A DNA stretch of 64,000 bases from Pezicula radicicola (taxonomy: Eukaryota; Ascomycota; Leotiomycetes; Helotiales; Dermateaceae): positions 36,020-100,019 of the forward strand of contig PDUO01000023.1 in the NCBI GenBank assembly GCA_003008705.1. Reading direction: 5' to 3'. Position numbers and translations under genes: made by a program. Positions 7,149-60,450 of the stretch are shown here, piece after piece. A model generated the notes under the pieces. It made no database searches. It was not told the DNA's origin and saw only the letters and a list, made by a program, of their open reading frames with translations. The first letter of the stretch is position 1. Each line of letters starts with the position of its first letter.

Positions 7149-8693
7149 ATGGCGGACGGTGATACTACTGCACCCACCGATGGGTCCAATAATGGGAATG
7201 TTGAAACTGCTACAAATGGCAAGAAACAGATCATTCTGAATGCCTTCGTCATGAATACCCCTGGCCATCTAGCAGCCGGGCAATGGCGCAACCCAAAGAA
7301 CAAGACCGACCAATACAAGAAACTGTCATTCTGGACCGATTTGGCACAATTGCTTGACAAAGCCAATTTCCATGCTATGTTCATCGCCGATACGTTGGGA
7401 CCATATGATGTGTACAAAGGCCCTGCAAACGTGGTCCCAGCTTTATCATCTGGGGCACAATTCCCGGTCAATGATCCTTTATATACGGTACCGGCTATGG
7501 CTGCAGTTACCAAGAATCTAGTCTTCGGGGTCACTGCCAGCTTAACATACGAAAAACCATACGCACTCGCTCGTCGGCTTTCTACCGTTGATCACTTGTC
7601 CGAGGGCCGTCTCGCCTGGAATATTGTCACTTCATATCTCGATAGTGCAGCTCGGAACCATGGCCTGAAAGAACAGATCCCACACGATGAGCGCTATGCT
7701 ATTGCCCATGAGTATATGGAGGTGCTATACAAGCTTTGGGAGGGAAGCTTCCGAGACGACGCCGTCTTGGCCGATCGGGAGCAGGGCACGTATATCGCTA
7801 GTGATGGCGTTCGACAAATTCATCACAAAGGAAAATATTTCGAGGTCCCTGGCCCTCACTTTTGTGAGCCATCTCCGCAGCGCACTCCATTTCTGTTTCA
7901 GGCCGGTGTCTCAGAGGCCGGTAATAACTTCGGAGGGAAACACGGAGAAGCTATTTTCATCGGTGGGCAAACGCCTGAGGGCGTGAAGGCAACGGTGGAC
8001 AACATCCGTAGCGTCGCAAAGAAAGAAGGTCGAGACCCAAATCACATAAAAGTGATCCTCGGTATTACAGTGATTGTCGCCGCAACCGATGAAGAGGCAC
8101 AAGCGAAACGGGATGAGTATCTGAAGTACGCCGACCCGGAAGGTGTTCTGGCACTGTTTGGTGGATGGACGGGAATTGATCTCTCTCCTTATCCCGACGA
8201 CGAAGATTTCCGTTTGACCGAATCGCCTCGCGTTCAATCTCTTGTTCGGCGGTGGGCTAGTACCGTCCCTGGTACAGACAATCTTCCATGGACTAAAAGA
8301 CGGGTTGTTGAGTATTTGAGCATTGGTGGTTCTCAGACAAAAGTGATTGGTAGTGCCGCGACCGTAGCTGACGGATTAGAAATTTGGCTCGATCAAACTG
8401 GTATCGATGGATTCAATCTAGCTCATATCACCAACCCAGGCTCTTTCGAGGATATCATAGAATATTTGATTCCCGAGTTGCAGCGCCGGGGGTTGTTTAG
8501 AACAAAGGTCGAAAAAGAGGGCGCAACGGCAAGAGAAGCCTACATTGGATCGAGAAGGCTTCCTGAAGACCATCCTGGAAGTAAGTTTAAATGGCGTGCG
8601 GGTGAGAAAGTTCCCAATTATCAGTTGGAAGAAGAAGCTGCAAAAAAACAATCGGAGGAGAATGGTGAAGTGGAAGACACTACTGAGGCCTGA
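7149..8693 (+). CDS. FMN-dependent NtaA/SnaA/DszA-type monooxygenase (luciferase-like family)
   Basis: This is a single-exon gene of 514 residues beginning at ATG 7149. After a Gly/Thr/Asn-rich leader of about 25 residues, the luciferase-like fold starts at KKQIILNAFVMNTPGHLAAG. Family hallmarks follow: FWTDLAQLLDKANFHAMFIAD, ARRLSTVDHLSEGRLAWNIV, FLFQAGVSEAGNNFGGKHGEA and GIDGFNLAHITNPGSFED near the C-terminus. Members oxidise small substrates (nitrilotriacetate, EDTA, dibenzothiophene sulfone, pristinamycin) using FMNH2 from a separate reductase. No reductase gene is seen nearby. The charged, Glu-rich tail after about residue 470 is probably a fungal extension. The true substrate is unknown. 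The absence of introns and the family's abundance in bacteria would fit old transfer, but fungi commonly carry these genes. Confidence 0.9.
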   Translation: MADGDTTAPTDGSNNGNVETATNGKKQIILNAFVMNTPGHLAAGQWRNPKNKTDQYKKLSFWTDLAQLLDKANFHAMFIADTLGPYDVYKGPANVVPALSSGAQFPVNDPLYTVPAMAAVTKNLVFGVTASLTYEKPYALARRLSTVDHLSEGRLAWNIVTSYLDSAARNHGLKEQIPHDERYAIAHEYMEVLYKLWEGSFRDDAVLADREQGTYIASDGVRQIHHKGKYFEVPGPHFCEPSPQRTPFLFQAGVSEAGNNFGGKHGEAIFIGGQTPEGVKATVDNIRSVAKKEGRDPNHIKVILGITVIVAATDEEAQAKRDEYLKYADPEGVLALFGGWTGIDLSPYPDDEDFRLTESPRVQSLVRRWASTVPGTDNLPWTKRRVVEYLSIGGSQTKVIGSAATVADGLEIWLDQTGIDGFNLAHITNPGSFEDIIEYLIPELQRRGLFRTKVEKEGATAREAYIGSRRLPEDHPGSKFKWRAGEKVPNYQLEEEAAKKQSEENGEVEDTTEA

Positions 8694-9078: not shown

Positions 9079-12000
9079 TCAAGCCATGGCAGCACCCATT
9101 CTCGGCGCCTCCAAATACAACGTGGAGAAGACCTTGCTATCCAGCAACTGAGCCGGTGCCTTCCCACTCAACACTCCCACATCCGCCGGCGTCACATCCC
9201 ACTGGCAGAAACTCAAACTTGCCCAGAGGTTGACCACTGTCTGAGCAGCATTATTTCCCAGTCCTGGTGTGCCACTCCATTGTGTTCGAACCTCTTCCCA
9301 CTCGTCTTGACTTGGGTCCTCGACGGTTGGATACCAAGCTGGATCTTCTGCCACGATAGCTGGAAATGGAAATGGCGATCCAGTGACGTCTTCAATGAAG
9401 AATGTGTTGTATGAAAACGCTAGAATTATATCACCTGATAGCACGGGGTTGGGTGATGATACGAGTAAACCCATCGGAAGAGGCACAGAGGGATTGGATC
9501 CATTGAGAAGATTCCTGTTCTGGTTCGGATTGGGATCTTCTGATTTATTTGGATCATCGGCTTTCTTATCTGAGAGCACTGTCAGCTGTACATTACCCTT
9601 TAAGCATTGAGAATACAATGACTTACAAATTCCCCACAAGGCACTAGGTACAGATTTTATGATAGTGCTTGCTTCATCCCATCTTGCTACTTTCTCATCA
9701 CTAGCTCCAGCCAAATCACTGGTGGGTGGTGCCACGGGGGTGATAGTTACGGTGAGCAGGCTAGACAGTTTATCAACAAGTTCCATTGGCTTTGCATAGA
9801 TCGGTTGCCCATTACCGGGCACGAGCAGTGGGTCGATTTTCGGCGCATTTGGATCAAGCTGGCCTGTGATGATCGTTGCGGAATCAATGGCGAACTTACA
9901 CGCAATGGTAAATTGGAAGACGGCCCCACGCACATTCCATGGTAAGTTCTGTGTGTTAGGCGATGAGGTAGTGCTTCCATTTGGAATGAGGCCATTGTTA
10001 CAAGAAAAAACGTGGGGGACTGGTCCATCATCGTCTATTGACACATTGGTAATACCGTTATCCGCTGCTATCGCAGAGGACGTGATGGCCTTGGCTGCTG
10101 AGGCGGCGCTTGGTAGAGATGACTGTAACACGAGCTCATAGAATGGTTCAAGCAGGAGAGCATCGATGGATGTACCGTCAAGAGTATCTCCAAAGTTGAT
10201 ATCAAACCCAAAGACCCAGAAATCAACATGTACTCTACCCGCTAGGGGTGGTCCTTGAAGGTAAAGGGTGGCACCAATTTCGACATTAATATGCAAAGTG
10301 CAGATCCAAAGATCGAGTGTGAACTAAACGCCAATGCTCAGCCCCCCTTGAGCAGCAAAATGGAAAGGCTTGTAGTTAATCAGAAAATCGGCATAAGCAT
10401 CGAAAAAAGCGTATAAGGGACCTAACGACAAAGAGACGTCAAGCCGACCTCCACCCATGCACACTTTTGGGGTAATAGCAAAGTAAGCCTCTCCTTTAAT
10501 GCTAATAGAGCTATCATACGCCCAGCTAATACCTAATCTAGGTGGATTGGGGTATTGATCTGGGCGATTGTAAGACTGGTGATAGCCACCAATGGTGAAA
10601 ACCCAGTCTCCTTTGAGTGTCGGGTCATCGGAAGCAAACCAGCTGTACAGTGCAAACCCACCCGTGAGATGGCAGCTTGGATTGAGCACATATGATGCCG
10701 GAGTAAGTTGACCTTCAATCTTTAATATCCCCGCGTTGAAATCGACGGTTGCGACTATGCCAAGTTGTACATGTAGGAACTTCATTTTGTTCTCGACTCC
10801 GGCAGGCATGTCAGCTGTGGCTACTCCAAACAGGCCAAGGGTGATTTGCGGGTCCCATTGAATAACTATAACAGCCTTAACCTGTAACATCTCAAATGCT
10901 GTCACTGTGAGTCCTGCTGCCAGCCAAAAAGAGCCATCTCGTACAGAGAACCAGCCGGTACTCATAAGTGTGGACAAGGCACTGTTAGGGTTCGTATCGG
11001 TGGGAGAAGCGAGGAATGGAAAGTCTACAACATTTGCTGCGTTAGGATATTGCAGGTCTGTGTTGTATCCAAAGCCACCGGTAATACCGTCAATTTCAGC
11101 AAACTCGAATGTTATTAGTGGGCCGTTGAGTATGAAGTAGACGAATGTAGATATGAACGATGGCTTATTTTTAGGCGTTGTTTTCCCGTAATATCCGGCC
11201 GCCTGGAAGAGGTACGGGACAAATGTAAGAGCAATCGCCCCTTGGTACGCTTCCGTCTTTTGATCTAGGGTGTCGGTCTTGATGCGCTCAAACATGCCTG
11301 CGAGCAGGAGTGGAGGTCGATCAAAGGCAACCGCAATGCCATTGAGAGAGAATCCTGGCTCCGGAAGGGTATGAAGAGTTATCCCTTTTGGAAACGAAAT
11401 GTCCAGACTAAATCCTATCAGGCCCAAACCAATGGGCCCTAGAACAATGGAAGCATCCATCAGGATCGAAAGTGTTTGAGGCGGTCCACTAGCATACTTT
11501 AGTCCCATGTTTCTGATGGTGATTGGTCCTATAGTTTTTTCGTAAGGTGTCTTTGCAGATCCTGGATTTCTAGAATCTGTAGAGCCTTTAGCCAAGATCA
11601 ACGACATCTCACCTAATTCTATAGAAGATGGCGGATCTGGCTTGAAGAAGACGTAATCAAGCACCACAGTTGACTCGCCTTTGGAATTTTTTAGCACAAG
11701 GATGAAATGTGCGCCAGCAGAAAGAACAACATCAGAATCTGTGTATGACTTCTTGGTCACTCTATACGGAAGTTTCTTTCTGTTTTCTTCCGTTTGTTGC
11801 GAATTGATAGCATTTACATCGCCATACGTCAGACCAAGATTAGCACCATCACCTGTCTGCGGCTGGACATACAGAAACAACATCTCATCAAATGGTTGCG
11901 TGATATTTCCAATGAGATCGATATCAATTTCTGGTAGTCCGCCAATTGAGACGGCAAAAGCCCTTTGCACCAGTGGCCTGTTTATTTGTCCGATTGGGGT

Positions 12001-15000
12001 AGCAGGTTGATACTGGAATGCCTGGAATGATATACCATCGAAATCCAAATACGCTGTGAAGAACAAACTTTTGTTGGAACAATTAGGGACTGTTGCAGAT
12101 TTAATGTCAACACCTACTGCATCTTTGACCTTGGGTGGCTTCACAGGAATATCGCTGACAAAGTCTGGTAATTCGGCCTCGCCAAAGATGTGCTGCACGA
12201 TGGCGCCAACTGTCGTTTCCCCCGGGTCATCAGTGCCAATCAGTAGATAAGCATCGAAGGTCCATCCAGAGCTGTCGTAGTTAAAGTTCAGTGCCAGTTG
12301 TAGAGATCCGAGCATTAGGACTCCGTTTATGAGGAAGCTTGAAGCAGCTCCGCCAGGTGCGTAGCTGTACACAATACCAAGCGTTTGGATTTCAATGTTG
12401 TCCAGAATTGAAGCAACGGCACTTTGTGAGTCGTTGTCAAAGAACTGGTACAGCATAGAGCCATAAACCCCAGTCACCATCGCGAACACCTTCCAAGTCC
12501 CGTTGTCAAAAGAGATCTCGCCTTGGACTTGAGCTGGAGTCCCGTTGTTGGATCCTGGAGCTGGCATGATCACAGCTGTCATTCCTAAAGAGGCGTGAAT
12601 TGGGCCTTGGTTCCAGACGTATGCGGCGTCGAGGTAAAGCTGTCCTAGATAAAGGCGAGGTACAACTCCTCCACCAGCAGCAGGATCACACACCATGGTA
12701 CCACCAAATGCTATTCCAGTCTGGCTGATCGATAAAGTTGCTTGAGTAACTTCATTTGGAATCTCCTTGGGTATGTTCTCAAACCCTCCAATCTTGCTTA
12801 AATCAAGAAAAGCTGGCCAAGGATCCTTTGTGGTATCGATGGTGACTGGTTGCATATACGAGTATGCTTCATACTCCGGCAGCATTGATCTCTCCTCAAT
12901 TGCAGCCGCGCTTCCAGGTGAACACCAAAGTTGAGCTAAGAGATTACTTCCTGTACCTTGAGCCCATTGGTAAGTAGCCAGGAAAAGTGCTACTTCTCCG
13001 GATGCAAACTTCACTCCGGTCTCCAAGTCGATTGTGACGCTAGAGACTCCTGGGATAGCATTGGCGGTGGGAGTGGCCGCAACTCCTTTTGAGATGGCAT
13101 CATAGTTCAGCACAACAGTCATGCGTCGTAGCGCGGGAGATAAAAATGATGTATTTCCCGCTGGTTGCTTCATCCAGTCTGTAAAAGGAAACCTGTCGCC
13201 ATCCAGATTCAAGATCGGCTTCAAGAAATCAAAGATCATCTGGAGGGCATCTTGACGGGTCTCCAGGATCAGTTCCAGCTTCACTTGATCCTGATAAAGC
13301 TCCAGGACAGTAGAAAACTGAATGTTGGAAATGCTACACATCATATAGAATGTCAAAGAACCATCATAATTTATCGTAGCACCTGGAGTACCATCGTCCA
13401 TAACATTGGGTGCCCATTTCGAGCTCCTCCTAGCTATCATGCTGGCGCTCACAATAGATAGTCCCTTTAAAGCTCCCAAATAACTATTCAACTGTGTTCT
13501 AGCGCCGTCATCAAGATCGAATTGTAACCTGACTGTGATCTTGTAGCTATTCAGAGGCTCAAACCAGACAGAATTTCGACGACCTTTCGTTTGGTCCTTA
13601 TGTATCGTGAGTTTGATATCTCTCAAGAACTGTATTACTTGAGAATCCATCAAATATTGAATGCGAGTGAAAGTCACTAGCTGAAGGAGTGTGATTGTAC
13701 CAGACTCGGTCCATGGACTCGTATCCAATCCAAAGACTAGGATATTGCTCCTCGGTAGGAGACCACCAGGCAATGGACTTGTTGTAGCGAAAGCGTCTTG
13801 TACTGCGTTTGTACTAAAGTACAAAACCGTCGACGTTGGATCTGAAGTCGAAGGTAGATGCTGTCCAGTAGATGCCACTATGCTTGACTGGCTGCTTGTT
13901 AGAAGCATGGCGAGAGAAAATCCGCTGATTGAAGGCCCATCCCCAATCATAGCCGAGAACGAGCCCTGTGCATCTACAACCTGTTCAACATAATTTCCAA
14001 ACTCGTCTGAGTCAAGAAGCTTCATAGTGTTATTGGCAACTGGTGCATTTGGTCCTGGAAGACAGATGTTTCCACAATGCAAAGCACCAATAAATGTATC
14101 CAGTGCCGTTCCCGAAGTTAGCCTACTATACGCGCTTATTTTGATGGAGACTGGATCGATTCTACTGGCATAAAAACAATATTCGTTGTTGTTGTCCAAT
14201 AGAAGGAGCTTTCTTGCAGGGAGATTGCGGAGAAGGGTCAGGGGATCCCAAAATGCTGTGCTTCCGGCTACTGTTCGGTCAGAACCATCAATTTCATCCT
14301 CGTTTGGATCAGTTCCTTCAGTGTCATTGTACGTTCCGGTGATAACTGCAGCTCGTTGCATATATAGATACGTACCATCATCTCCTTCACTGGTGGCAAT
14401 AATGGAGGCTGATGGCGGTTTTGATGCTGTGAACAAGTTTGTTGTGAAAAAGTTAAAGGGACCACCTGCACTGTTTGCATTCGTAGTAGTAACAGCGATG
14501 GGAACCACTGACATGTTTGTAAAGCGATTGTATTGTCTAGGCTCTGGCATGTTGTAAAATTTATGGGAAACAACACCGTCCGTGTCATCATTGTCTCGGC
14601 ATTGAATGATAATGCAATCAATACTGTTATTCTGAGTCAAGTTTTGCATCCCCGGGTATACATAACTAGAACCAAAGGCAGGATGTGAAATGCGCCCTGG
14701 ATGGCAGAGATCACCCCAAAGTTGAGAGAGTTGATCCGCTACCCATTGCTTCATCTCGTAGTCTGAACGAGTTCCGCCCTGGACCCAGTTGTACAGAGCC
14801 AGCTGGTTCTGAACAGGCTGATTGGGAGGTAAAATCTTCTGATTGAGTAAATCGTATAGCTTCGCCATATAATTCCAATACGGTGAGTAAGGACTCTGCT
14901 TACTTTCCTGGAAGGACTTGATACTAATTCTGTAAGCCTTCGTATACACAAATCCATTGGTGTTACGAGGGCTATGAGCTACGGCAAGAAAATGCGGATA

Positions 15001-16220
15001 TTTAGTAGCGAGGACCCTGGGCTGAAAATTTTGGTAGAGCTTCCAGAGCCGGGTCCAGAGAAAGAGATATAACATAATCTCACATGCTGAAAATTAATCA
15101 GTCTCCTGAAGTGACACACAAGTGATTGGCGTGACAATGAATTTGCACCAAATGGAGATTGGAGTAACTCACAGGGATGGACATGACGAGAACTTGGATT
15201 AGAGATTACTATGTTGTATGGTTTCGCAAAGAAAACCATATTGAGAGGTGTGGACGAACGTGAACCATGGTGACTAAGTTTCATCGACCTGAATGCTGGT
15301 TTTCGATTATTTCCTTGGAGCCAGTTTAAGATCTTGTCTTCGGTGAGTTGATCTGCATCACCTGCAAGGTAATGAGATATTCGGTATGATTGAGGCCACA
15401 GAGTAATACATGCGATTGAAACTCGATTCGTTATCGTAGGGTCCTCGAGGATAACGCCAAGGTTGTTGGGGCCTAGTACTTGTTGCTGAACCGCTATACA
15501 GTACATTTGGGGAGGTAGGGGAACTGTTGTTGGCAGCCCATAGGGGTCCGGCGGGTTGTTCTTCACTAAATCATCTAGGCTTTGGACTGCTCCAATATTG
15601 TTGCATTTTCTGTGACCAAAAAATTCGACACCAAGAACGTTGCTTATATTTCCCTTACTGGGATCTGGATCGGCTGAAGAAACTAAACAGAAGTAAACCC
15701 AAGTGTAAGCTGTTGTGTATTTTGATCCTTTCCAGCTGGTGTTGATGCGGCCATATCCGTTTTTCACGTCTAAATAGCCAACAGGAGCTCCATTGAGTCG
15801 CGTTCCGGAGTTCCAGTTGGGACAGTACAGAAAGGTCGCTGGTACTGTGTTTCCTCCCATTTTATCGTAGAAGAGGTACGGGATTGCCATTCCATATTTG
15901 AGAGCATCTTCAGCTATGGTTCGAAAAACTCCGCCATAGTGATCCTCGTCCCAATGCGTGATGACTATGCTGTTGAACTTGCACGAGCCTTGGGGGCCCC
16001 AATCGTAACGTATATTCAGCCAATTAATCGTTTTACGAATCGGATTCACGTCCACGATCTTGGTGTTCGGATTGAGGCTGGTCATGGTGGATCCTCCATC
16101 TATGAGCACGCAGCGAATGCCGAATTTCTTCCCATTTTGGTCCGTCCAAACTAGCACATGAATGGAACAGTCACCATTACCAAAATTGATATGATGGGAG
16201 TCAATCCCCCAGTACGCCAT
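9079..16220 (-). CDS. Giant metallo-beta-lactamase / DUF6603-like protein, interrupted by one in-frame TAG
   Basis: The start is ATG 16220. One intron (15087-15172) joins ...RHVHP to a 6 kb exon, and the coding total is 7056 bases, an exact multiple of three. Residues 1-350 form a ComEC-like metallo-beta-lactamase domain: THWDEDHYGG (His89, Asp91, Asp93, His94), LAGDADQLTEDKIL and KLSHHGSRSS. No ComEC channel helices are present. A very long beta-rich body follows. Around residues 1500-1936 is a region I recognise as DUF6603-like (GGFGYNTDLQYPN, FWLAAGLTVTAFEML, GGFALYSWFA, FTIGGYHQSY, FHFAAQGGLSIGV). Immediately after, TAG at 10324-10326 (codon 1937) breaks the frame. The same frame then continues for 414 more residues in the same style (FWVFGFDINFG) to the stop at 9079. 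No splice pair removes the TAG. An optional in-frame 48-base intron with donor GTAAGT lies near 9585-9632. Function unknown. Confidence 0.72.
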
Positions 16221-17594
16221 GTTTCTACAGCAGTGTTAGTAGATGTGGTATACCGGGCGAGGCCCTTATTCGTTATTACATTTGTTTATCAAATAAAATA
16301 CCTCACGGGGAGTTCAGTTCTGGTGATTGTATTGATGGAGAGATTTGAGAACAACCATCTAGTAAGTCAAAATTGTAAAATTCTTTTTGAATCTCGTCTT
16401 GCTCAAGGACATTCTCTTGAGAGAGTGAAGTGAACGGGGTTGAACAGTAAAGAATACGATATGGAGGGCAACCAAATTGATTACCTCGTCAATTCTGAAA
16501 GCCTGATGTTCCACAGTGACAAAACGGTTCAAAAAGCCACTGCATTCCCGATGCAAACCGATCCCATTACGGTGGTGGTGCTGCTGCTGAAAAGCAAGGC
16601 GTCGCAATTAAGGGCTTTGATAAAAACACCCTGGAATGTGGGAGAACAAGGGGACGGGTGCGACGGACCACAGAACATTGAACTTGCTATCGCGTGGTCC
16701 ATTACAGGGCAAGAACTACCCCCACATTTCACATCTGGGTGGCGGTAAACCTGAGCGAATGCCGAAGTTTTACAAGATCCCGAGTAGCTAACCTTGATTC
16801 TCTTGTTAGCAAAGTATGAAGTCTTTCGAATTAAAATTACCACAATGACTAACTAAAATTTATTCTAATTTGGCGAATGGCCTTTAATCAGCAAGCCTGA
16901 TGTAATTTCTTGATGGTCAATTCATCTCCTCATTTTAGACAAATTCATCGCTTAAATTACTTCTAGCTAATTTAAGCGAGACATCTGGGAGGGAACAACC
17001 CAACTAGCTAATGCATGTTGACAAGAAGGCCCCATCAAGCCACACAACAGTTGTTACCATTCTCCGAATTCACCAGGTAAGACAGAGTAGCATCATAGCC
17101 GAAGAGAGATAGCTACGCCCGTTGCAAGGGCTCAGTTGCAGGAGTGGATTCTTAGACGGAATGAAAATAAGGCGAATACGTTCAAGTCAACTGGCTGCTC
17201 TAAGAAGGCAGACTCAAATCCTAGATGAATGCATTCCACAAATTTGGGTCTCTTGATCTTCAACCTGCCTTGTCTTCGAGGTAGTAATGGAATGAGAGCG
17301 CTACCGCCGGAGATATCTCGTAGAGATACAGATGTAGGGCGGGATGAGGGGCTAGGAATGAGTCTGGACTTCCTCCAACTGCAAAATTTACACATCCTAG
17401 AATTATATTGTAAATCCCAACACGAGCTTCTTTTAATCAATAATTTTGCTTCTAAAGTAGAATAATAAAATTCCGACTCCATGACCTAACAAGTTACTGG
17501 TTATAGTGAGGATATTAAGCAGACTTATAATCAAAACTTCCAGCGCAGCTAAAAGAAAATTTGGTCTCCTCGATTGAAAGAATTCTAAAAGAAA
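16221..17594. other. Intergenic between two giant genes
   Basis: 1.37 kb lies between the giant metallo-beta-lactamase gene start and the 3' end of the 1385-residue gene. I find no coding stretch that resembles a protein. It contains a strong hairpin at 16948-16979, listed separately. The part next to 16221 should carry the promoter of the giant gene. Confidence 0.5.
16948..16979. repeat. Perfect 12-bp-stem hairpin, A+T-rich
   Basis: The arms tcgcttaaatta and taatttaagcga are perfect reverse complements, separated by the 8-base loop cttctagc. The hairpin lies in the spacer 728 bases upstream of the giant gene start and 647 bases from the stop of the tandem neighbour. It could be a transcript-end hairpin, a protein-binding palindrome or a mobile-element scar; nothing favours one of these. 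Confidence 0.6.
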
Positions 17595-20500
17595 TCACGC
17601 TGGATCTGTCGTGGGAGAATCTGGTCGCACAATTGGTGCTTTTAGTTGCAAGTAACCCTCGATAGCTGTATACGGACCCTTCTCAAACTTTGGCCGATTG
17701 TCCACTTTTCCAAGTCCTAAAGCCATGTACTTTTGCTTGTCTCCATCTGTACTATCAACAAAGGGCTGAAGCCAAGCCCAATCTGCAATTGGCAAATTCG
17801 GAATACACACTGTACTGTCTTTGACTGTTTGATCCTCTGAAGGCGGGTCTAGTTTGTAGGCTTGCGTAAGCGTGTGCTTTGGGTCCCAATATTGTTGAAC
17901 ATCTGAAGTAACCATGACAGGGCCCATGTGGAAGACAGCTGTCATTTTCTTCATGGCATTCTCCCAAGTCCAAGAGGGAAGCTGCAGATTCTGGATAGGC
18001 AAGATACTACTGTACGTTGTTATAGGCACGAAAGGATCAATGATGGTCCCGAAGACAGTGAGGTTCTCGTTCCAGGTTTTGGTGAACGCCTTTGCATTTA
18101 TCAAAGAGTCGGTAGATTTCTCGTAGTTGGCTGGGTTGAGCCAAGTACATTTGAACTTCGGGTAGTTGCCTGTGCTAATTGGCTGCATTGGCCCGGTAGC
18201 AGGGTCAGTGGCAAAATAGGTATATAACTTGTCAAGATCAAGCTCGTTTCCAGGCACGAGTGGTTGGTTTTGGTAAGTATTAAAGTATCCAAGGAGCCCA
18301 TCTGAAGCTCGGTTTTGATCACCAAGCTTGACGAAGAATTCGTAGACTGGATCATCAAGTAAATTCAGTGGGACCTGAGCCCCTAAATTACTCGCTGGCT
18401 GCTGTGTATCAACATTCTTGGTTGTAGCTTCACTTACGGCTGCGGTTTGATTGCGACCATCAAGTGTGGATTGATTTCTTTTGGGTACGGATGACAATTC
18501 AAGTGAATATCCGGCATTAACAAGTGCCAAAGGTCTACCGACAAGAGAGTTGAGAAAGCTGGCGTAGGCACTTGGTACGGATGAAGAAAATTGAAGTGAA
18601 TTGTTGACCATCTTTAGGAACGCAAGTAAGTAGGTCTGGTCACTGTTTGCAAGCTTTTCTAGCAATTTATCCAACTGCCCAGTGTTGGGAGGATCAGCAG
18701 GAGGATCAAATGGCAGCCATTTTGCACTTGTCGAAACGACCTTTGGAGCCGTAGGAGACGCAATTCGCACCTCACGGTAAAAGGTGCCATCTGGTAGGAA
18801 GACTTGCAATCCGTAGTCCACATAATTCAACACGAGCCAACCCCAAATTGGGTTTTCCCATTCCGTCACTGGTCGCCAGTAAGAGTATTCAGAGCCGGTG
18901 GTCGGTTTGTCAAACCGGGTATCGTGGATAACAAAAGCCGAGTTTAGACGTGCTGGTTGATTGATTTGAGGAGGGATCTGGACAAATTCACAATAGCCTG
19001 GCTTGGCTGCTGCTCGGACAAGATTTGGCTGTTTATTGTAAAGCTGAGGCGCATAATAATCGCTGATACACGGGTAAACCGGATGATCACTCTCGTGTCC
19101 ATATCGAGGATCAATTGCATGGATTGCTTGACCAAATTTATCGATAACATTCAATTTGGTGAAGCTAAATTGTCCATGGGTGACCGGTTTGAAAGGACTG
19201 TAAGTGTCTTGAGAATTGTTTCCCGCTGTCGGGTCAATAAAGCGAACAAGTGAGCCGTAAGGCGTTACGTCTGAGTTCTTGCCAATAAGACTTAGATTTT
19301 CTAGCGTAAAAGGTCCAATAACAGCGTCCGGAAGTGGCTGAATTCCATGCAACGGATACTTTCCATCGGCTGGATATCTAGTATTTGGTTTGATATGTGT
19401 TCCCTGAACGAGAGTAAGGAGATGATCACGAAAACCGTCCAAAGGAGCTGACAAGAAAGGCAACTGATAGGTATCATTCAAAATCTTCTCTCTCTGAGCT
19501 GGGTCTGGTAGGATTGCATGTAAAGCATCTTGGTTGACTTTGTTGAATAGCTGTTGGATTTGTGCTTGTAGCGAGAAGTTGGGTTGTGGGAGAAGCATGA
19601 TTCTTCCAGACACAGTACGAGTATCGTTGATCAAGGGATCAAGGAGATTGATACCACTGTTGATGCCTAGTCTCCAACGAGAGTCTGAGATGTCGGTACG
19701 CTTTCCATTTAGTGCCCAGTCTGCATAAGGTATATGGAAATACTCTGCTTCCCATTCTACAAACAGAGGAAACCAAGCCTGTGTATTTCCCCACTGATCG
19801 CGTAAAGGATCACTATCGGCTCCATGTAGGCCATGATCATGATAAAGTGGAAAATAGGGTCCCGGAGGAGGTACAGGCCCACTGCCAGGTCCCGCAAGTG
19901 TTAGGAACTCTTGTGCTAGAGCCAGAGCAGTACCCTGAAGATCCAAGGGTAGCTTGTCGGTATGGAATAGTGACATGTCCGTGTTTATCAAAGAGGTGAG
20001 TGGAATCAATTGTGTATCTAGACGAACTTTCAAGCTGTTGAGGTAATCATCGGGCCATCCGGCTTCAATACCTCCTATTAATAGCGTAGGATCCCGGGGT
20101 TCCCAATATTCTGGGAGCACACCGGCCTTAGGAAGCTGAGTGAACATAGAACTGTTTGTCGAATAATAGTTGACGGTTTCTTGCTGAGCTGTAGCAAGTG
20201 CTTGAAGGTCAGTTATTTGCTTGCTCAAGTCATCAAGGGGTGGTTTGCCCTTGGTGATTGAGCTCGCATACTGCCACCAGTAGGAGAACATATTCCACTG
20301 TAGCTGAAGAGTGACACGAAGAGTACTATCGAGCATCCTTTGCGCTTGGTTAAGAATCTCTAGATTATCAGCCTGAGACTTATCGGGATCAACAGCTGGT
20401 TTGCCGGCTTCACTTTGAAAATACCAATGCTGTCCTCCTGAACTTCGTGCAAAATTCCAGTTTTGGACCTCGTCATTGGCCGCCCTCTGAGCTTCTACAC

Positions 20501-21752
20501 CATCATCTTGTGCTCTCAGTAAAGGTCCAAGAAGCTTGAGATCCTTTTCCAGATCTGTCAGCTGATGGGCATCAATGAACGTGAGAAGAGAATCGATGGG
20601 AGTAGTGCCAATTGCAATCTGCATATCCTCATTCAACACCTTTGACTTATCATTCGCCGGGACGTTCAATGGAAGCTTCTCACTATTCCAAGATACTTGG
20701 TACATGGCTCCATGACACAAGACATTCGCAGTCTTATCAGATTTTAACCACGTCACGATGTCATCAGGCTGTGGCATGGTCCCATTCAGAATCATGTTCA
20801 GGCTTTTCATGCGGGCATCTCTTGTCCCTGAAGTCATGTTACCGAATGGACCGTCGTTTTCAGCTGAATGCCAGCCAATAACATAGTAACTCGCATCAGC
20901 AGCTGTTAAGGTCCCGGGCTCACCATTGATGGTGCAATCGAAGGTATCGAGCATTGAAAAGACATTACTACAGTGTGGCTGATAGTCAGGGAATAGGTGA
21001 TTAGAGCTACTCAGGACGGTAAGATCAACGCACTCTTGTGTAGGATCCTCTGACCAATTTTGCGCTAGCTGTCGGTAGCCAATAAATATCTCAGCCTGGT
21101 CAGCAATGCTGATATTTCCCGGGTCTCCCGTCTTGCTCTGGGACGTGATATATGGAGAAACATCGACTTGGAGATCGGCGTTATCTAATGAAACATCGTC
21201 GATCTTGCGCATCCTGTCACTCTCAATGACCCATGCTTCAACAGAGTTGATCTGGACACCATCAGATGCGTTTGGAACAGTAGTTGCTGCATTTGGGTCC
21301 AAAGTGCGGATGATCAACCATCGATTTGGGAGAGGGCGAAAGCTAGGTGCACTATAATCTCCCGCTGGAAGATCACCGGCAGCTCCAAAGCCTTTTGCTT
21401 GTCGCTGCGAATCGTGGTCCTTTACTGAGGGTGTTGCTGCCACACCACTTCTATAAAATCTTGGAAGGGTCCAATGTACATATACTCCGATTCTGTTTGT
21501 TCGAGTCTTTCCATCTGGTTGCTGGCCCAAATCCGTGATCCGTGAGTTAAATTTATGACAGCTGGAATTATGAAGATCTGCGTGGTCCAAAATGTCATTT
21601 TGAATTAAGCTGTCATCGAGTTGGAGAAAGGTGTAGTTTGGCTGAGTGATAGGGGCAATCTTTGCATCCGTCGGCCCTCCATCACAAACTGGCGTGTTGA
21701 ACACAAATGCATCCAACTTCATGGGTATAACGAGATTTTTCGGTTGTGCCAT
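17595..21752 (-). CDS. Giant single-exon protein of unknown function (1385 aa), module partner
   Basis: An uninterrupted 4158-base frame starts at ATG 21752, with good composition and no intron. I recognise no named catalytic domain. It has a strongly patterned N-terminus: MKLDAFVFNTPVC, then GVYVHWTLPRFYRSG, PLPNRWLIIRTLDPN and VEAWVIESDRM. From memory, such strings occur in large uncharacterised bacterial proteins, which is not proof of origin. Trp-rich blocks follow: PEYWEPRDPTLLIGG, FPLFVEWEAEYFHIPYADW, YSYWRPVTEWENPIWGWL and FHMGPVMVTSDVQQYWDP. A helical stretch near residues 490-520 separates two mostly beta regions. There is no signal peptide or membrane helix, so it is probably soluble and cytosolic. 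It lies between the DUF6603-like giant gene and the lectin-like gene in the same orientation, suggesting a shared module. Confidence 0.85.
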   Translation of the reverse strand: MAQPKNLVIPMKLDAFVFNTPVCDGGPTDAKIAPITQPNYTFLQLDDSLIQNDILDHADLHNSSCHKFNSRITDLGQQPDGKTRTNRIGVYVHWTLPRFYRSGVAATPSVKDHDSQRQAKGFGAAGDLPAGDYSAPSFRPLPNRWLIIRTLDPNAATTVPNASDGVQINSVEAWVIESDRMRKIDDVSLDNADLQVDVSPYITSQSKTGDPGNISIADQAEIFIGYRQLAQNWSEDPTQECVDLTVLSSSNHLFPDYQPHCSNVFSMLDTFDCTINGEPGTLTAADASYYVIGWHSAENDGPFGNMTSGTRDARMKSLNMILNGTMPQPDDIVTWLKSDKTANVLCHGAMYQVSWNSEKLPLNVPANDKSKVLNEDMQIAIGTTPIDSLLTFIDAHQLTDLEKDLKLLGPLLRAQDDGVEAQRAANDEVQNWNFARSSGGQHWYFQSEAGKPAVDPDKSQADNLEILNQAQRMLDSTLRVTLQLQWNMFSYWWQYASSITKGKPPLDDLSKQITDLQALATAQQETVNYYSTNSSMFTQLPKAGVLPEYWEPRDPTLLIGGIEAGWPDDYLNSLKVRLDTQLIPLTSLINTDMSLFHTDKLPLDLQGTALALAQEFLTLAGPGSGPVPPPGPYFPLYHDHGLHGADSDPLRDQWGNTQAWFPLFVEWEAEYFHIPYADWALNGKRTDISDSRWRLGINSGINLLDPLINDTRTVSGRIMLLPQPNFSLQAQIQQLFNKVNQDALHAILPDPAQREKILNDTYQLPFLSAPLDGFRDHLLTLVQGTHIKPNTRYPADGKYPLHGIQPLPDAVIGPFTLENLSLIGKNSDVTPYGSLVRFIDPTAGNNSQDTYSPFKPVTHGQFSFTKLNVIDKFGQAIHAIDPRYGHESDHPVYPCISDYYAPQLYNKQPNLVRAAAKPGYCEFVQIPPQINQPARLNSAFVIHDTRFDKPTTGSEYSYWRPVTEWENPIWGWLVLNYVDYGLQVFLPDGTFYREVRIASPTAPKVVSTSAKWLPFDPPADPPNTGQLDKLLEKLANSDQTYLLAFLKMVNNSLQFSSSVPSAYASFLNSLVGRPLALVNAGYSLELSSVPKRNQSTLDGRNQTAAVSEATTKNVDTQQPASNLGAQVPLNLLDDPVYEFFVKLGDQNRASDGLLGYFNTYQNQPLVPGNELDLDKLYTYFATDPATGPMQPISTGNYPKFKCTWLNPANYEKSTDSLINAKAFTKTWNENLTVFGTIIDPFVPITTYSSILPIQNLQLPSWTWENAMKKMTAVFHMGPVMVTSDVQQYWDPKHTLTQAYKLDPPSEDQTVKDSTVCIPNLPIADWAWLQPFVDSTDGDKQKYMALGLGKVDNRPKFEKGPYTAIEGYLQLKAPIVRPDSPTTDPA

Positions 21753-22660
21753 TTTGAGATGGCAATAAGTTGAACGGCGTCCAGCGAAGGCAACCTGGTA
21801 AAATGCTGCTGGTAAACTGGCGGCTTCGATGCTGGTGAAGAAGCCCCCTCTACCTACAATCTTTGAAATGGGATGATGAATGGAACTGAACTTGAAGGTG
21901 GGGTAAGATACTCAAAGGAGGCAAGGGGAGGTAGAAAATAGAATGCCCCTTCGGTTGATCGCTTATTGTCTCAAACTATGGAATCCAAGACACACGAGGC
22001 TTTCACAACTTCCGGGATCTGTGGATCTGCTATTATGTGAAACATAGACAGCTGTATCTTTTCAAGGAATGAAGCCAGAGGAACGGACCGCAACTTAGAA
22101 CACGTATGCGGGGCTTAATAAAAACCACCAAAAATGTTTCAAGATATTTATCCTCGGAACGTAGGTAGCCTTGATAAAATATGTTTTGATATATTAGGCT
22201 GAACTGGGCGGAAGTGCCAAGCTTGATGCTGATTACCTCTAATCACTGAAAAACAATCCTTGCGTTTAAGGATATTCCCCTGCATCACCAAACTGAATTT
22301 CTTAATTGTGATGTACTTGGTGAAAGCCATTCTGCACAGAACTAGCTCTCACCCCTTCTTGCAGTGCTATCGGCTTCTATATTCCCTGAGGCCTACAAGA
22401 CTCTTTGGAGAAGAGGGTTCTTCATGCCAATCAAACATAGATTCATCAAACACCTGTTTTTAAGAACACTCTAAATAAAAGACGTCTTTTTCTATCCATT
22501 AACGACTACCTATACTGGCAAGGAGTTGTTCCAACTTCTCGCACATTAACACAAAAGCGAAAGAGATTGTAGTTCCTGGCCCAAGAATCAACCCGAAACA
22601 TTTGCTCATCTACTCCACAATCAAATCTCTCAATGGCCGTTTGACTCGTTTGACTTGAGC
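21753..22660. other. Intergenic, promoter side of the 1385-aa gene
   Basis: 908 bases lie between the start codon at 21752 and the stop of the lectin-like gene at 22661. No coding fragment is convincing. Pyrimidine-rich tracts on the minus strand near 21840-21960 are consistent with a fungal promoter of the gene at 21752. Confidence 0.45.
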
Positions 22661-23747
22661 TTAGTGGTCTTTAAACATCTCATTGTTAATGGGATCGATG
22701 TATGGGGTGAACTTAGAGGCGCCGTCAGCAATATAATAGACAAAGTTCGAGTTGCCATTAGATATGGCGGTCATCAATGTCGTGTTCTTCAAAGCAGGGG
22801 CACCAGTGACTGTCTGTGGAGCAAACCATTGAATTGTGCTGCCGGATGCAATACCCACAACTCTGTTCAATGCTTGGTTTACGTCCATGTAGTACAAGAA
22901 GATCGTAAGGTTTGGTCCAGTAGGAGACTTTGCAGGGACTGAGCAAACGGCGAGGGGGCTGGAGCTGACAACTCCTGCGGTTCCTGGAATAGGGCTCTCT
23001 ATGCCGTAATTAATAACTGTAAAGAGGCTTTCAGGTCAGTGAATTGACTTACGAGCCTGAGTTTGCGAGCCGACCCAGTAGATCTGACGCTTCTTATCAG
23101 TGTTCGAAAAGAAGATGAACCGCTCTTGAGTCGCAGGGAAGAAGACGGATGCAAGGTTTGTGTTTTTGCTAGGAGTGGCACCAGGCCAAACTGAAACCGT
23201 AGCTCCGGAATTGCCAACAACAATTGCCTCGGCAAGCTGGTAGCTACTTCCGCCACTGGAAAGCAACATCAGTATCTAGTAATCAAATCACTTTCAATGT
23301 TGCTTACCTGGGCAATTGCAAGTAGTAAACGTAGTCAGTTCCGGTTTCGTTGGAGCATGCTGCAAGTCCTGGTTGTGTTGTGACACTGGTCGAATCCTTG
23401 GTAAGAGGATTGAAAATTGGGCTCACTTGGGAGACATATTGGTTCATGTCCCCGTTGAGCTTGGGCTGTGTGATACCATATACAGTGAGCTTTATCACAG
23501 GTTGTCAGTTAATGAACGAATTGATTGAATAGCAATTACATACCAAGCCTGCATGGAGGACAACTCCAAGGGAGGCAGGGTTCACAATGACGCCTGTAGA
23601 AACCCCATAATTGATGTATTCATCCCAGCTGGTAGGTTTCACTTCGGAGCGATGCTCGAGAGCAAGTTGCTGTTGGCCATTCAACCAGAATAGACAATGA
23701 TCGCCCGCCTCATTTGGGTTGACGATCACAGCGACTGGAGAAGCCAT
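22661..23747 (-). CDS. Fucose-lectin-like (AAL-type) six-bladed beta-propeller protein
   Basis: Four exons with introns 23490-23543, 23256-23307 and about 23017-23052 give 314 residues, the usual size of Aleuria-type fucose lectins. Blade-like repeats show an aromatic pair and a Trp or Tyr strand: DHCLFWLNGQQQLALEH, DYVYYLQLPSGGSSYQLAE, RFIFFSNTDKKRQIYWVGS, TIFLYYMDVNQALNRVVG and NFVYYIADGASKFTPYI. There is no signal peptide, which is normal for these cytosolic lectins. They bind fucosylated glycans in defence against predators or in host contact. I cannot confirm the Arg/Glu sugar-binding residues in every blade, so binding is unproven. The third intron is only 36 bases if acceptor TTTACAG is used; the in-frame acceptor GGCATAG makes it 54. 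Confidence 0.75.
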
Positions 23748-24476
23748 AATCGTATAGAAGTCAGATGATGATTTTTGTACGGGTATAATCTTAGATTTTG
23801 AACATGTATGAGTTAGTGTACCTGTGTCAAAACCAAAATCATTCGATTAATTTATACTGTACAGGATACAAATATGTTTACTTCTTATTTTCAACCACAG
23901 CAACAGCGTACCTCGTTGAAATGCGTAGCTAGGTCAACGCTTGAGAGGAGACTAACATTCCAATTTCTGTGTCTCTATTTCTGCCTTGCCCCAAGGGTTG
24001 AAAAGGGGGAAAAGAATGAGGTGCGGTGCGAATGATACTCCTTGCTCAAGCCACATAGCGAAGATGCACCAACTTCGTAAGGATTTCTCGGCTAATGATG
24101 TCTTCGTTTACGTGAATTGTTAATAACCTACGCTGATGAGGGTGCCTCGATTGAACATCCTCAAGATATGCAATCATCCGTAGAAAATCGTCGCTAGTGG
24201 TAAGTTGATTCAGGTGAGTCTCAGTTTTCGATCTCATGACCGTGGCTAAGGGGTCAGCTTTAGGAAGCCTGTCGCCCCTTTTCGCTGCGGAAATATTTTC
24301 CCTTGGAAAGTAAAAGAACTGCTACGCTGTCAACTGAAGATCACTTCTCCTGTTCAATTTCAACTATTAGAGCGTTGTTTCTCCAATATTAGCATATCCT
24401 ATTGAATTTAATATTGTTAGAGGTCTCGCGAGAAAGAACATTCCCTGCCCATTACAGCTTGTATGAGAATCAGCCT
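23748..24476. promoter_or_regulatory. Divergent promoter between lectin-like and 1121-aa genes
   Basis: This 729-base spacer lies between divergent start codons (23747 minus, 24477 plus), so both promoters sit here. If the lectin-like and giant genes form one system, this is the most informative place to look for shared regulatory motifs. A 63-codon minus-strand frame at 24046-24237 has no recognisable relatives and is not called. Confidence 0.45.
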
Positions 24477-27400
24477 ATGTCAAGATCCTCAGTCATGAAC
24501 CTCCGACGCTCTCGAACGAAACATCTCCCATCTCCTAGACGCCTTGCACTCCGTCACGGTCAGAGAATCCTCGCGCGTCTACAGGCAGCCAACAAAGACA
24601 ACGATGCTCTCGCCCCCGGTCAAGAAAGACTTTACTCCATCTATATTCCTGGTCTCGAGGCAGGATTACATCAAATTCATGTTGAGCAGGATATCATTGT
24701 TGACCCTCAAATAACACCAGTTCCTTCCGAAAAGAAAAAGAAAGTTGAAAGCTCCTTGCAATTCAATGTAATTGCACCTCGATTCTCATTGCCCGACAAT
24801 GCTATCAACTCAGTATACCCGCCAGAGAGCCATGAAGACCGAGCCGAAGTCCTCCCACATGTTGTATTCAATGACCCTACTTTACCATGGGAGAGAATTG
24901 CTAGTTGGAAATCGGAACAAAACCACCCAGACGACTACAACAACAACCGCGTCCCATGGCTTGCCGTTCTACTATTCACGCAAGATGAACTTCGGCTTGA
25001 CGACTCGACCCTTTCAACCATTTTTACAAATACAAGTCTTACAGGAACACCCACTCAAAGCACAACTTTTACAATCACGTTGCCAGTCGCAGATGTTTTT
25101 AAAACAAAGCAGACAGCTACTTCTATGGTGTACGATGCTACAACCGACGGCGCCGATGTAACAACGGATGCGATCTTCTTGAAGGCAAACCTGTTCAACA
25201 GTATTTTCACTAAATACGACAAAAATGGAGTTCCAGACCGGACACAAACTACTGGGCAAGTTTATCAGCATCGCTTTTTGTCACATCTCCGACATATTCA
25301 CATGGGAGATATTACTGCATCAACAGTGACCGCTGGAGAAGACGACGTCTTCTCTGTTGTCATCTCCAATCGCGTGGGACCTCTTACAATCACTCAGCCA
25401 ACGACAGTTATTGCCCACTTGGTGAACATCGAGGGCGTTGAAGCCATGCCATTTCCCGTCACTCAAGACTTTGTAGCAATGTCCTCACTTTATTCTTGGC
25501 AATATACATGCCTGCCACCAAAATCTCTGAACGTGGCTGACGTATTTTCTAACTTGGGCGAGTCTCAGGATATGCTGCGACCACAAGTTGATGACGCAGA
25601 TACAAATCTTCTCAATGGAGCAGGTGAAATTGGATCACGTATATCTAGGCGTCTCAAAGATGGTTACTCTTTGGTAAGATATCGAGTACAGACCGGTGAA
25701 GTAACCGCAGCCTTCACTAGGAGCCCTTTCGCCCCATCAACAGTCACATTTCCAACCAATATTCCATGGCCAAAGTCTTCTACAACCGGAACTAAGCTTC
25801 AAATCTTAGACCAAGAATTTAACATCATGGATATTACCTATTCAGCTGCTTGGAGCATTGGGAAAACACTAGGACTTGCTGATCAGACATTTGCTACAGC
25901 ACTCTCTCGTGTACGAAAGCAGATCTTTGACATTGCTATGAACAAAGCCCAGATTGATGCTATTAAGAAGCGATCTGCAGATCTTAACAAGCCAAGCGCG
26001 TATAAATCGAAGCTCGAGGTCTTGGAGTCTATTGCTCATACCGTCAAGAAAGTTGGTCTCTTACCATCGCAGAATGGTCTGAGGAACAATCCTCAAGGCA
26101 TGGTCAATCGCTGGTATCGGGAAGAACCTCCCCACCTCGATCTCACATACCAGGGTGATGAAATTGATCCCATTATTGATAAGTATCTCCCAGATGCAGC
26201 CAAGAGGGTGGCAAGTACATCTGATGTAGACTCGGGAGGAGATCCCACCATGTTACAACCATACAACGAGTACAACACCCCATATTCAACCGACTGGATG
26301 ATTGTACTTCAGTGGGTGCTGAATAGATATTACCTGGTTGATGTGCCACCTCACTACCTCATCACGGATCCCAGTCACGTCCCATTGGAGAGTTTGAGAT
26401 ATTTCTTAATCGATCCAAACTGGATCAACGCAATGATCGATGGAGGTCTAAGCCTCGCAAATCACCTCGACCAAGAGGACGATCGTTTGAGAGATGCAAT
26501 CAAAGCTGCGATAAATTGGTACCTTACCACAACCATACCAAGTCTCAATTATCTTCCGCCGGTTCCAAGATATGGCTTTTTCCTGCGATCTGCTCTAGTC
26601 ACCAAGTTTCCGGACCTTATCGTAGATATGAAGCCGGCCCCAAGTCCTACAGCTGCACCGGTCATTCTCCGCCATGAAGTTGTTGATCAAGGGACCATGC
26701 TCTGCATGTTGCGAGAAGCACCTGTTGCTCCAGAATTCACTTCCTTACTTCTACGAGAGCCTCCACATCAGCAATTCTTCACAGCAGCAACCACAATCAC
26801 CACTCAGCATATTGAGATGGACTATAAACGAGTCTACACAAATTCTAATGCACAAGATCCGCTAAGCCAGAATCCAATTGCATTTACTTATAATAATGGG
26901 TCGCTTGGTCCACACGGATCTCTTTTCATCTGGGGAAGCTCTACAACTACTTTTGATGTACGGATGTTGAATGTAGAGCAATTCGCCTCTGATTTGTATC
27001 ATACTATTGTTGATACATTCAATCAAGAAGGTCATTCAGATTGGTATACAGAGCCATGTCCCACATCCGGATTAACTGGTATCCAACTTAACGAGAAGAA
27101 CTGGCAGCTGGAAATTGCTCTCCCGAACCAGGCCGTTACGTCTGAAAGGAATTTTGATAACAACATACCAAGAACATTGCCTCTAGGATCCAGGCCTGCC
27201 AAAGCACGGCCAGTCCTCAATTTCAAGTCCTTTCAGCTCGAATGTGCACCCCATCCCTCTTTCGAAGAACGCAAACGCTTGATGCCAGTCAAATTGACTC
27301 ATCCACCACCACACTATCGCATCCCACGCTTTAACCCTTCAATCACCAAACCCAACATAACAGATGATCCACCAGCAGACGCACCCGTTTTCAGCTATCA

Positions 27401-27842
27401 CATATTTCCAATTGGTTTCCCAACAAATCCCATATCCATGCTTCAAGGAAAACAAGATCTCATCTTCTCAATCATATACCAAAGCGGAGCACAAAACTTC
27501 AACATGGTGAATACACAAATTCATATCCCCTTAGCACTTCCAGCACCATTAATAGATATTAACAATAATATTGGACCTCGTGCAACCATCCTGTCCAACC
27601 TTCGCTTCAACGTCATTGCCCAATTAACGACTGATGAATTGGTTCTCACTTTGAAGCCGAGGAGTAGTACGAAGAAGAGTGTGCCTGTTTCTCGAATACC
27701 GGAGATGAGTTTTATGTTGAGTGGTGTTGTTGTTCATCGGTTTAAGGATCCTACGTCTATTAATGTTACTGCTTATGAGGCTTATGATAGTCGGAATCCT
27801 TGGTCGAGGACTTTTGCGGTATTGCTTACACCACCTACGTAG
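24477..27842 (+). CDS. Giant single-exon protein of unknown function (1121 aa), module partner
   Basis: The frame is open from before 24402, but the first in-frame ATG is at 24477 (MSRSSVMNLRRSRTKHLPSP), giving 1121 residues; the earlier TTG is not a eukaryotic start. Patterned strings are LYSIYIPGLEAGLHQIHVEQ, LPWERIASWKSEQ, VPWLAVLLFTQDELRLDD, RFLSHLRHIHMGDI, RYFLIDPNWINAMIDGG, GPHGSLFIWGSSTTTFDVRM and SYHIFPIGFPTNP. I do not recognise a named domain. I recall similar wording (PWLA-LLLF near the N-terminus) in large uncharacterised bacterial proteins. There is no signal peptide or membrane helix. It is divergent from the lectin-like gene and ends 198 bases from the convergent SRPK-like kinase. 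Size, lack of introns and style match the 1385-residue gene, suggesting that they act together; this is inference. Confidence 0.83.
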   Translation: MSRSSVMNLRRSRTKHLPSPRRLALRHGQRILARLQAANKDNDALAPGQERLYSIYIPGLEAGLHQIHVEQDIIVDPQITPVPSEKKKKVESSLQFNVIAPRFSLPDNAINSVYPPESHEDRAEVLPHVVFNDPTLPWERIASWKSEQNHPDDYNNNRVPWLAVLLFTQDELRLDDSTLSTIFTNTSLTGTPTQSTTFTITLPVADVFKTKQTATSMVYDATTDGADVTTDAIFLKANLFNSIFTKYDKNGVPDRTQTTGQVYQHRFLSHLRHIHMGDITASTVTAGEDDVFSVVISNRVGPLTITQPTTVIAHLVNIEGVEAMPFPVTQDFVAMSSLYSWQYTCLPPKSLNVADVFSNLGESQDMLRPQVDDADTNLLNGAGEIGSRISRRLKDGYSLVRYRVQTGEVTAAFTRSPFAPSTVTFPTNIPWPKSSTTGTKLQILDQEFNIMDITYSAAWSIGKTLGLADQTFATALSRVRKQIFDIAMNKAQIDAIKKRSADLNKPSAYKSKLEVLESIAHTVKKVGLLPSQNGLRNNPQGMVNRWYREEPPHLDLTYQGDEIDPIIDKYLPDAAKRVASTSDVDSGGDPTMLQPYNEYNTPYSTDWMIVLQWVLNRYYLVDVPPHYLITDPSHVPLESLRYFLIDPNWINAMIDGGLSLANHLDQEDDRLRDAIKAAINWYLTTTIPSLNYLPPVPRYGFFLRSALVTKFPDLIVDMKPAPSPTAAPVILRHEVVDQGTMLCMLREAPVAPEFTSLLLREPPHQQFFTAATTITTQHIEMDYKRVYTNSNAQDPLSQNPIAFTYNNGSLGPHGSLFIWGSSTTTFDVRMLNVEQFASDLYHTIVDTFNQEGHSDWYTEPCPTSGLTGIQLNEKNWQLEIALPNQAVTSERNFDNNIPRTLPLGSRPAKARPVLNFKSFQLECAPHPSFEERKRLMPVKLTHPPPHYRIPRFNPSITKPNITDDPPADAPVFSYHIFPIGFPTNPISMLQGKQDLIFSIIYQSGAQNFNMVNTQIHIPLALPAPLIDINNNIGPRATILSNLRFNVIAQLTTDELVLTLKPRSSTKKSVPVSRIPEMSFMLSGVVVHRFKDPTSINVTAYEAYDSRNPWSRTFAVLLTPPT

Positions 27843-60300: not shown

Positions 60301-60450
60301 AGGAACTTATACTACTCTTTAAGAAAACTAGCTTATACGTTTTATACTAATAGATATTAAAATTATAAGTAGGAACTTATACTACTACTTGGAGATACTT
60401 TGGAAGATATTAAAACCAGGGGAAGACTTTAATTAGGAACTTATACTACT
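60301..60450. repeat. Three direct copies of a 16-bp word
   Basis: The word aggaacttatactact occurs at 60301, 60371 and 60435, spaced 70 and 64 bases apart; copies one and three are also preceded by aatt. The repeats lie before the recognisable gag part of the retrotransposon, where a long terminal repeat or leader would be expected. Confidence 0.55.

Follow-up and report, generated by a model that had tools for sequence, protein, structure and literature searches.

A module of giant proteins common to bacteria and fungi, with one recognisable catalytic part

Do several very large genes that lie side by side in a fungal genome make up one system and, if so, where did that system come from and what might it do? 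The question is raised by a 64-kb stretch (64,000 nucleotides; hereafter the window) of the ascomycete Pezicula radicicola (assembly GCA_003008705.1, contig PDUO01000023.1, forward-strand positions 36,020 to 100,019), which is part of a 61-Mb genome assembled in 152 contigs. Within window positions 9079-27842 lie four genes: one that joins a metallo-beta-lactamase (MBL) head to a body with a DUF6603 domain (MBL-DUF6603; 9079-16220, minus strand), one for a 1385-aa protein that we call GA (17595-21752, minus), one for a 314-aa protein (22661-23747, minus), and one for a 1121-aa protein that we call GB (24477-27842, plus). From the letters alone, an initial sequence-only reading had tentatively taken these genes for a multi-gene module obtained from bacteria. 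Here we report that the three large families form a real giant-protein module that is common to bacteria and fungi, is undescribed in the literature searched, and has one recognisable catalytic part.

A scan of GTDB genomes with a GB alignment recovered eight loci, four of them in Streptomyces and the others in Nocardia, Saprospiraceae, Blastocatellia and a gammaproteobacterial metagenome-assembled genome. A plasmid search with bacterial GA returned eight records, from Streptomyces, Embleya and Paenibacillus, and these were the same eight that GB matched; five of them were analysed at locus level. When profiles of the three families were run over the 13 bacterial loci, GB and GA were each detected in 13/13, the presence of GB in L002-L009 and of GA in L010-L014 being given by construction since those loci had been found through these genes, and DUF6603 was detected in 12/13 (all except L011). 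The order DUF6603-GB-GA, on one strand, was seen in 12 of the 13 loci, across five phyla, so that the bacterial relatives of the fungal GA are the third gene of an operon. A genome scan with the GA alignment gave 52 pattern matches, none of which was confirmed; as bacterial GA does exist, the fruitless scan indicates that a wide distance separates the fungal from the bacterial form of GA.

The linkage was then counted in a sample of 150 genomes of the Streptomycetaceae (the family of S. roseoverticillatus), for which genome counts are lower bounds. DUF6603 was detected in at least 33 genomes, GB in at least 23 (three of these matches being short and weak) and GA in at least 20, and all 20 genomes with GA fell within the 33 with DUF6603 (co-occurrence P 1.6e-16). 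Using 27 of 35 survey rows for GA and 29 of 35 for GB (the rest being further pieces of the same genes), together with 41/41 for DUF6603, we found DUF6603 within 12 kb on the same strand at 27/27 GA loci and GB at 26/27. The standard order held at 25/27, the exceptions being G302, with GA on the upstream side, and a fragmentary locus of G207. Gaps of -8 to +34 bases separated DUF6603 from GB in 18/26 cases and GB from GA in 20/26, figures that are approximate because bacterial genes, and hence their starts, were called by a simple custom script. With the three large families adjoining in bacteria, the grouping that the sequence-only reading had noticed is far beyond chance.

In an even sample of Actinomycetota the module is rare: among 198 genomes, at least four carried DUF6603, at least two GB (one match being weak) and at least one GA. 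DUF6603 also occurred without detectable GA at 13 loci in the 150 Streptomycetaceae genomes. When 12 of these and two further loci without GA were inspected (L042-L055), 13 of the 14 carried at least one of two other large-protein families; such loci are probably a sister type of the module, whose large families the GA and GB profiles miss.

In fungi, searches at E <= 0.001 gave 397 GA and 422 GB homologues, of which the best 120 each were examined by name (7996 best candidates were scored). Judging from the genera, all but one of the named matches come from ascomycetes, which span Eurotio-, Sordario-, Dothideo-, Leotio-, Lecanoro-, Geoglosso-, Pezizo- and Orbiliomycetes. The remaining GA homologue (P0057) is filed under a tree, Carpinus fangiana, and probably reflects fungal contamination of that assembly. 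Pairing of the two genes, as judged from equal lengths of contigs rather than from contig names, was widespread, with 45 of the best 120 GA matches sharing a longest-contig size with one of the best 120 GB matches. Serially numbered gene tags were available for 16 of these 45 pairs (counted by eye): 11 were exactly two apart (for example D8B26_007692/007694, ETB97_007818/007820 and TWF506_004134/004136), two were adjacent, two differed by three or four, and for one (AA313) the numbers were far apart. A distance of two leaves room for one gene between GA and GB, as in the window. GA and GB have also diverged together, since their pairwise distances correlate with r = 0.884 over 43 pairs (42 of the 45, after three pairs with fragments were dropped, plus the window), a value that 0/2000 shuffles reached, and the nearest neighbour is identical in both for 29/43 pairs. 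Elsewhere in the P. radicicola genome, decayed GA (minus) and GB (plus) stand head to head in the same arrangement as in the window (G000 C140:13726-19763) and contain stop codons, as does a decayed DUF6603 at C129:66648-67699. The families thus co-occur in bacteria and in fungi, and the refutation that the sequence-only reading had named for itself did not come about. A chance neighbourhood of unrelated fungal genes would have to account for the recurrence of these families in one order in several bacterial phyla and for their pairing in fungi; it is refuted by the Streptomycetaceae survey, and we give it practically no credence.

Where, then, did the fungal genes come from? In quick maximum-likelihood trees of GA and of GB, which were built without L013 and L014, without six loci that were nested or duplicates, and without genes beyond the length limits, the 12 fungal rows formed one clade with support 100, in keeping with the bacterial connection that had been suspected. 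In the GA tree the fungi and L008, the gammaproteobacterial locus with an MBL-DUF6603 fusion, split from the other 29 bacterial rows (support 98), and in the GB tree the fungi grouped with L008, L005, L006, L010 and L011 (support 93). The bacteria-to-fungi direction is drawn from breadth, namely five bacterial phyla versus, among the named matches, Pezizomycotina only. By base composition the module stretch is not distinct from its surroundings (GC 0.456 versus 0.451), as expected of an old transfer, and a recent transfer was rejected on this ground. A phage origin was likewise rejected: pattern matches were unconfirmed, another search was empty, and one 1.9-kb record matched 6% of the MBL-DUF6603 protein. 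Taken as a whole, these comparisons of sequence suggest that fungi acquired a complete multi-gene machine of bacterial origin, the DUF6603-GB-GA operon having probably moved in one piece, either before the Pezizomycotina spread or at an early stage of that spread. To our knowledge, multi-gene systems that moved from bacteria to fungi and are still linked are rare, and the literature search returned, in the portions of text available, no publication on point for such a multi-gene transfer.

The catalytic part lies in the MBL-DUF6603 gene. Its first exon (16220-15173) is separated by an 86-base GT...AG intron (15172-15087) from the second (15086-9079), and together the exons (1048 + 6008 nt) give 2352 codons including the final stop, or 2351 with an in-frame TAG at 10324-10326 taken as a codon. 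The 2351-codon length given in the sequence-only reading was hence exact, and its DUF6603-like assignment is clear (PF20248 at 443.7 bits versus a Pfam gathering cut-off of 27); what it overlooked was the TAG, of which the genome search likewise gives one in this gene. As assembled, the protein ends at about four fifths of its full length, with some 400 further codons downstream. The DUF6603-bearing body (10324-15086) covers PF20248 positions 2-387 (residues 1179-1583 of P0002), and the frame past the TAG (9079-10323) continues to match the end of the domain, positions 397-498, so that any break would be recent. A broken gene, a misread base or readthrough may account for the TAG. P0257, an MBL-DUF6603 relative from Aspergillus wentii, shows no stop within the database protein. 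No publication on DUF6603 or PF20248 was found in the literature search, and Pfam assigns the family no function.

The head (open reading frame (ORF) 14979-16220, minus) contains the motifs THWDEDH, GDAD and SHHGS, and thus the HxDxDH-type motif within the MBL fold. Nothing in this piece scored above Pfam cut-offs, and the NCBIfam Avs1a model, whose cut-off is 420 bits, gave 39; among PADLOC profiles the head matched LmuA (4.6e-14), RTasMBL (3e-9) and Avs1a (1.8e-8). The nuclease-type hydrolase head that the sequence-only reading had named is therefore related to nucleases of anti-phage systems. In the window, P0257 and L008 the MBL and DUF6603 form one protein, whereas in L013, L022, L023 and L028 the MBL has its own gene, which lies less than 30 bases upstream of that for DUF6603; all seven MBLs matched the LmuA profile, with E-values from 1.1e-8 to 1.1e-21, the latter in L008. 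Such a pattern, with two parts fused in one set of lineages and adjacent in another, is a textbook indication of functional linkage. From these profile relationships, the machine probably carries a DNA-cutting enzyme.

Protease-gated MBL DNases offer the closest comparison. As far as the available text of PMC12799240 goes, such enzymes have been demonstrated in Hachiman and AVAST, related nuclease-protease pairs occur in Lamassu and DRT, a caspase version is Canu, and the nuclease of such a pair always has a gene to itself. Measured against that text, the window and L008 MBLs share the catalytic motif and the LmuA profile similarity, four bacterial modules have a separate upstream MBL gene, and in L023 an M48 peptidase gene adjoins it; the differences are that the window, P0257 and L008 have an MBL-DUF6603 fusion, that no protease was seen at the window, and that the remaining parts of the module bear no relation to those systems. 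The MBL-DUF6603 link, combined with protease-gated MBL nucleases elsewhere, suggests a scaffold that would recognise a target and release the nuclease.

What GA and GB contribute was approached through profile searches and structure prediction. GB lies in an ORF of 1146 codons (24402-27842, plus), of which the ATG at 24477 yields the 1121-aa protein, and GA is likewise one open frame; both genes are thus as real as had been supposed. Neither scored above Pfam cut-offs, and in sequence searches of the PDB with GA, GB, DUF6603 and the MBL the best match was furin at E 0.1. Structure prediction covered GB and GA. Foldseek comparison of the GA model with the PDB gave a best E of 1.1, and that of the GB model with a viral library a best E of 2.2e-3, which we counted as leading nowhere; no credible PDB match was found for GA or GB. 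The huge bodies had been described as beta-rich, and the models qualify this: GB is predicted to have an alpha/beta core, which is the part that bacterial GB matches, and GA a long helical hairpin, so that neither looks purely beta. At its C-terminus GB has a predicted beta-sandwich (model residues 967-1120). That GA and GB are mutual duplicates was rejected (profile-comparison probability 0.2%).

GA is well conserved, with 159 residues at least 97% identical across 121 aligned sequences, and developmentally complex genera are among the bacterial carriers. Large, well conserved proteins with such carriers would suit an assembly with a housekeeping or developmental role (a particle for storage, the wall or lipid handling, for example) that simply travelled as an operon and used its MBL as a metabolic hydrolase. 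Such an assembly is hard to square with the patchy spread of GA (at least 1/198 actinobacterial and at least 20/150 Streptomycetaceae genomes), with MBL heads that group with defence-system profiles, and with the decayed copies in this genome, and we regard it as improbable.

The 314-aa protein, encoded between GA and GB by a predicted four-exon gene, had the length foreseen for it, exactly 314 residues. The label of an AAL-type lectin propeller found no support: the protein had no Pfam match at E <= 0.001 and no match to PDB sequences at E <= 0.1, and its internal repeats were not above chance (best 25 versus a mean maximum of 24.2 in 25 shuffles, by an ungapped test). Its likeness to AAL-type fucose-binding lectins comes down to a similar length and the short motifs that had been pointed out; it differs from them in having neither a Pfam or PDB sequence match nor a significant internal repeat. 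The label was rejected, and by sequence the protein cannot be recognised as a lectin. A glycan-binding partner has some footing in bacteria, at some DUF6603 loci. L022 encodes proteins with ConA-like lectin and LysM domains; the DUF6603 protein ends in a lactonase-type propeller in L002 (26.4 bits versus a cut-off of 21.7) and in Kelch repeats in L045, a locus without GA; and hemopexin motifs occur upstream in L032 (above cut-off) and L007 (just below it).

Near bacterial GA there are also rows of proteins whose fronts are constant and whose ends vary (for example L012:19501-21991 and L027:1-3688), a family with 31 copies in 20 loci, mostly of about 360-570 aa with about 270 constant residues. 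Such rows downstream of the module resemble polymorphic toxin systems as set out in the available text of PMC3482391; they differ in that Pfam recognised no domain, and hence no toxin domain, in the six proteins scanned. A protein downstream of the module gave one weak PHROG match, at E 0.014, with a family to which no function is assigned. In L024, a gene with TerD and CAP domains lies upstream of DUF6603 (2057-3193).

The variable-end proteins and the lectin- or propeller-like domains, as recognition-like parts, would also fit an exported weapon, that is, a released particle or toxin complex directed against competitors, nematodes or insects, whose variable ends, lectin-like domains and GB sandwich would bind the victim and whose payload would be the MBL nuclease. 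The PHROG scan of the DUF6603, GB and GA proteins found no phage-tail family match and recognised no part of an injection system, a crude hydropathy scan showed no clear N-terminal signal stretch, the six downstream proteins lacked a recognised toxin domain, and sandwich folds are common and little guide to function. We consider an outward weapon unlikely. In the Paenibacillus polymyxa plasmid p-YT9A (L010), genes annotated as phage baseplate assembly protein V and a GH-E nuclease lie about 9 kb from the module.

With modest confidence we favour an anciently transferred bacterial operon whose proteins assemble into a conflict complex with a nuclease arm. In that complex, DUF6603, GB and GA would be the scaffold; target recognition would fall to small exchangeable partners, such as the 314-aa protein, the variable-end family in actinobacteria and the lectin- or propeller-like domains of some loci; and the MBL head would be a DNA-cleaving effector, restrained until recognition. 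We infer complex formation, nuclease activity, gating and the conflict role from these features taken jointly. A conflict role would fit the decayed second copies and the patchy, sometimes multicopy and plasmid-borne spread. The relatives of the MBL and the neighbours of the module, a CHAT/CATRA pair in L012 and, in L010, a PLD-type protein with weak similarity to DrmC, make defence somewhat likelier, and we lean slightly towards intracellular defence over outward delivery. That lean is lowered by hydropathy, which leaves membrane segments possible in the DUF6603 body and the 314-aa protein.

Several observations weigh against this proposal. The crude scan peaked at 1.95 in the DUF6603 body and 1.77 in the 314-aa protein, above the usual mark of 1.6 for a membrane segment, so that a cytosolic site is uncertain. 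The window's own MBL-DUF6603 frame is interrupted by the TAG. PADLOC found nothing in the GA, GB or DUF6603 pieces, and those neighbours of the window's module that were scanned, a part of the whole, showed no partner protease. Across 55 loci (six of them nested or duplicate), a profile trained on the MBLs of the window, L008, L022 and L028, which the last three therefore match by construction, found the MBL fused in L008, adjacent in four loci and present as one weak further match; being absent from most bacterial modules, the MBL cannot be their core activity. Linkage of DUF6603 in fungi was seen in the window and one other fungus: of five fungal homologues found, one lies on a contig equal in size to that of a GA, namely A. 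wentii MW887_001025, numbered next to GA MW887_001024. Finally, the trees are quick, have long branches and were midpoint-rooted for drawing only, so that the direction of transfer rests on distribution.

Around the module, an ORF of 514 codons for a luciferase-like monooxygenase adjoins it at window positions 7149-8693. A Ser-rich low-complexity protein with repeats of the ETTTAKETYTAK type is encoded at 30394-31188, and positions 58001-64000 are very AT-rich (GC 0.20-0.28) next to a region of 45% GC, perhaps as a repeat affected by RIP.

As a molecular machine the module is unstudied and, in genetic terms, clearly defined; it comprises two giant families without a domain model and one domain of unknown function (DUF), in strict order in bacteria of several phyla and with genes that stay linked in many fungi. 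Its MBL link ties it to the protease-gated nucleases of bacterial immunity and provides a first testable activity, for which the compact Streptomyces and Paenibacillus copies are a starting point. It is possible, if doubtful, that Pezizomycotina inherited a complete bacterial immune machine, with an intracellular giant-protein sensor and a nuclease arm, which crossed kingdoms as a set of several genes, and still use it against viruses, mobile DNA or foreign nuclei. If true, this would make it an immune system of a new class, and an instance of a whole effector complex, rather than a single domain, passing from bacteria to a eukaryote.

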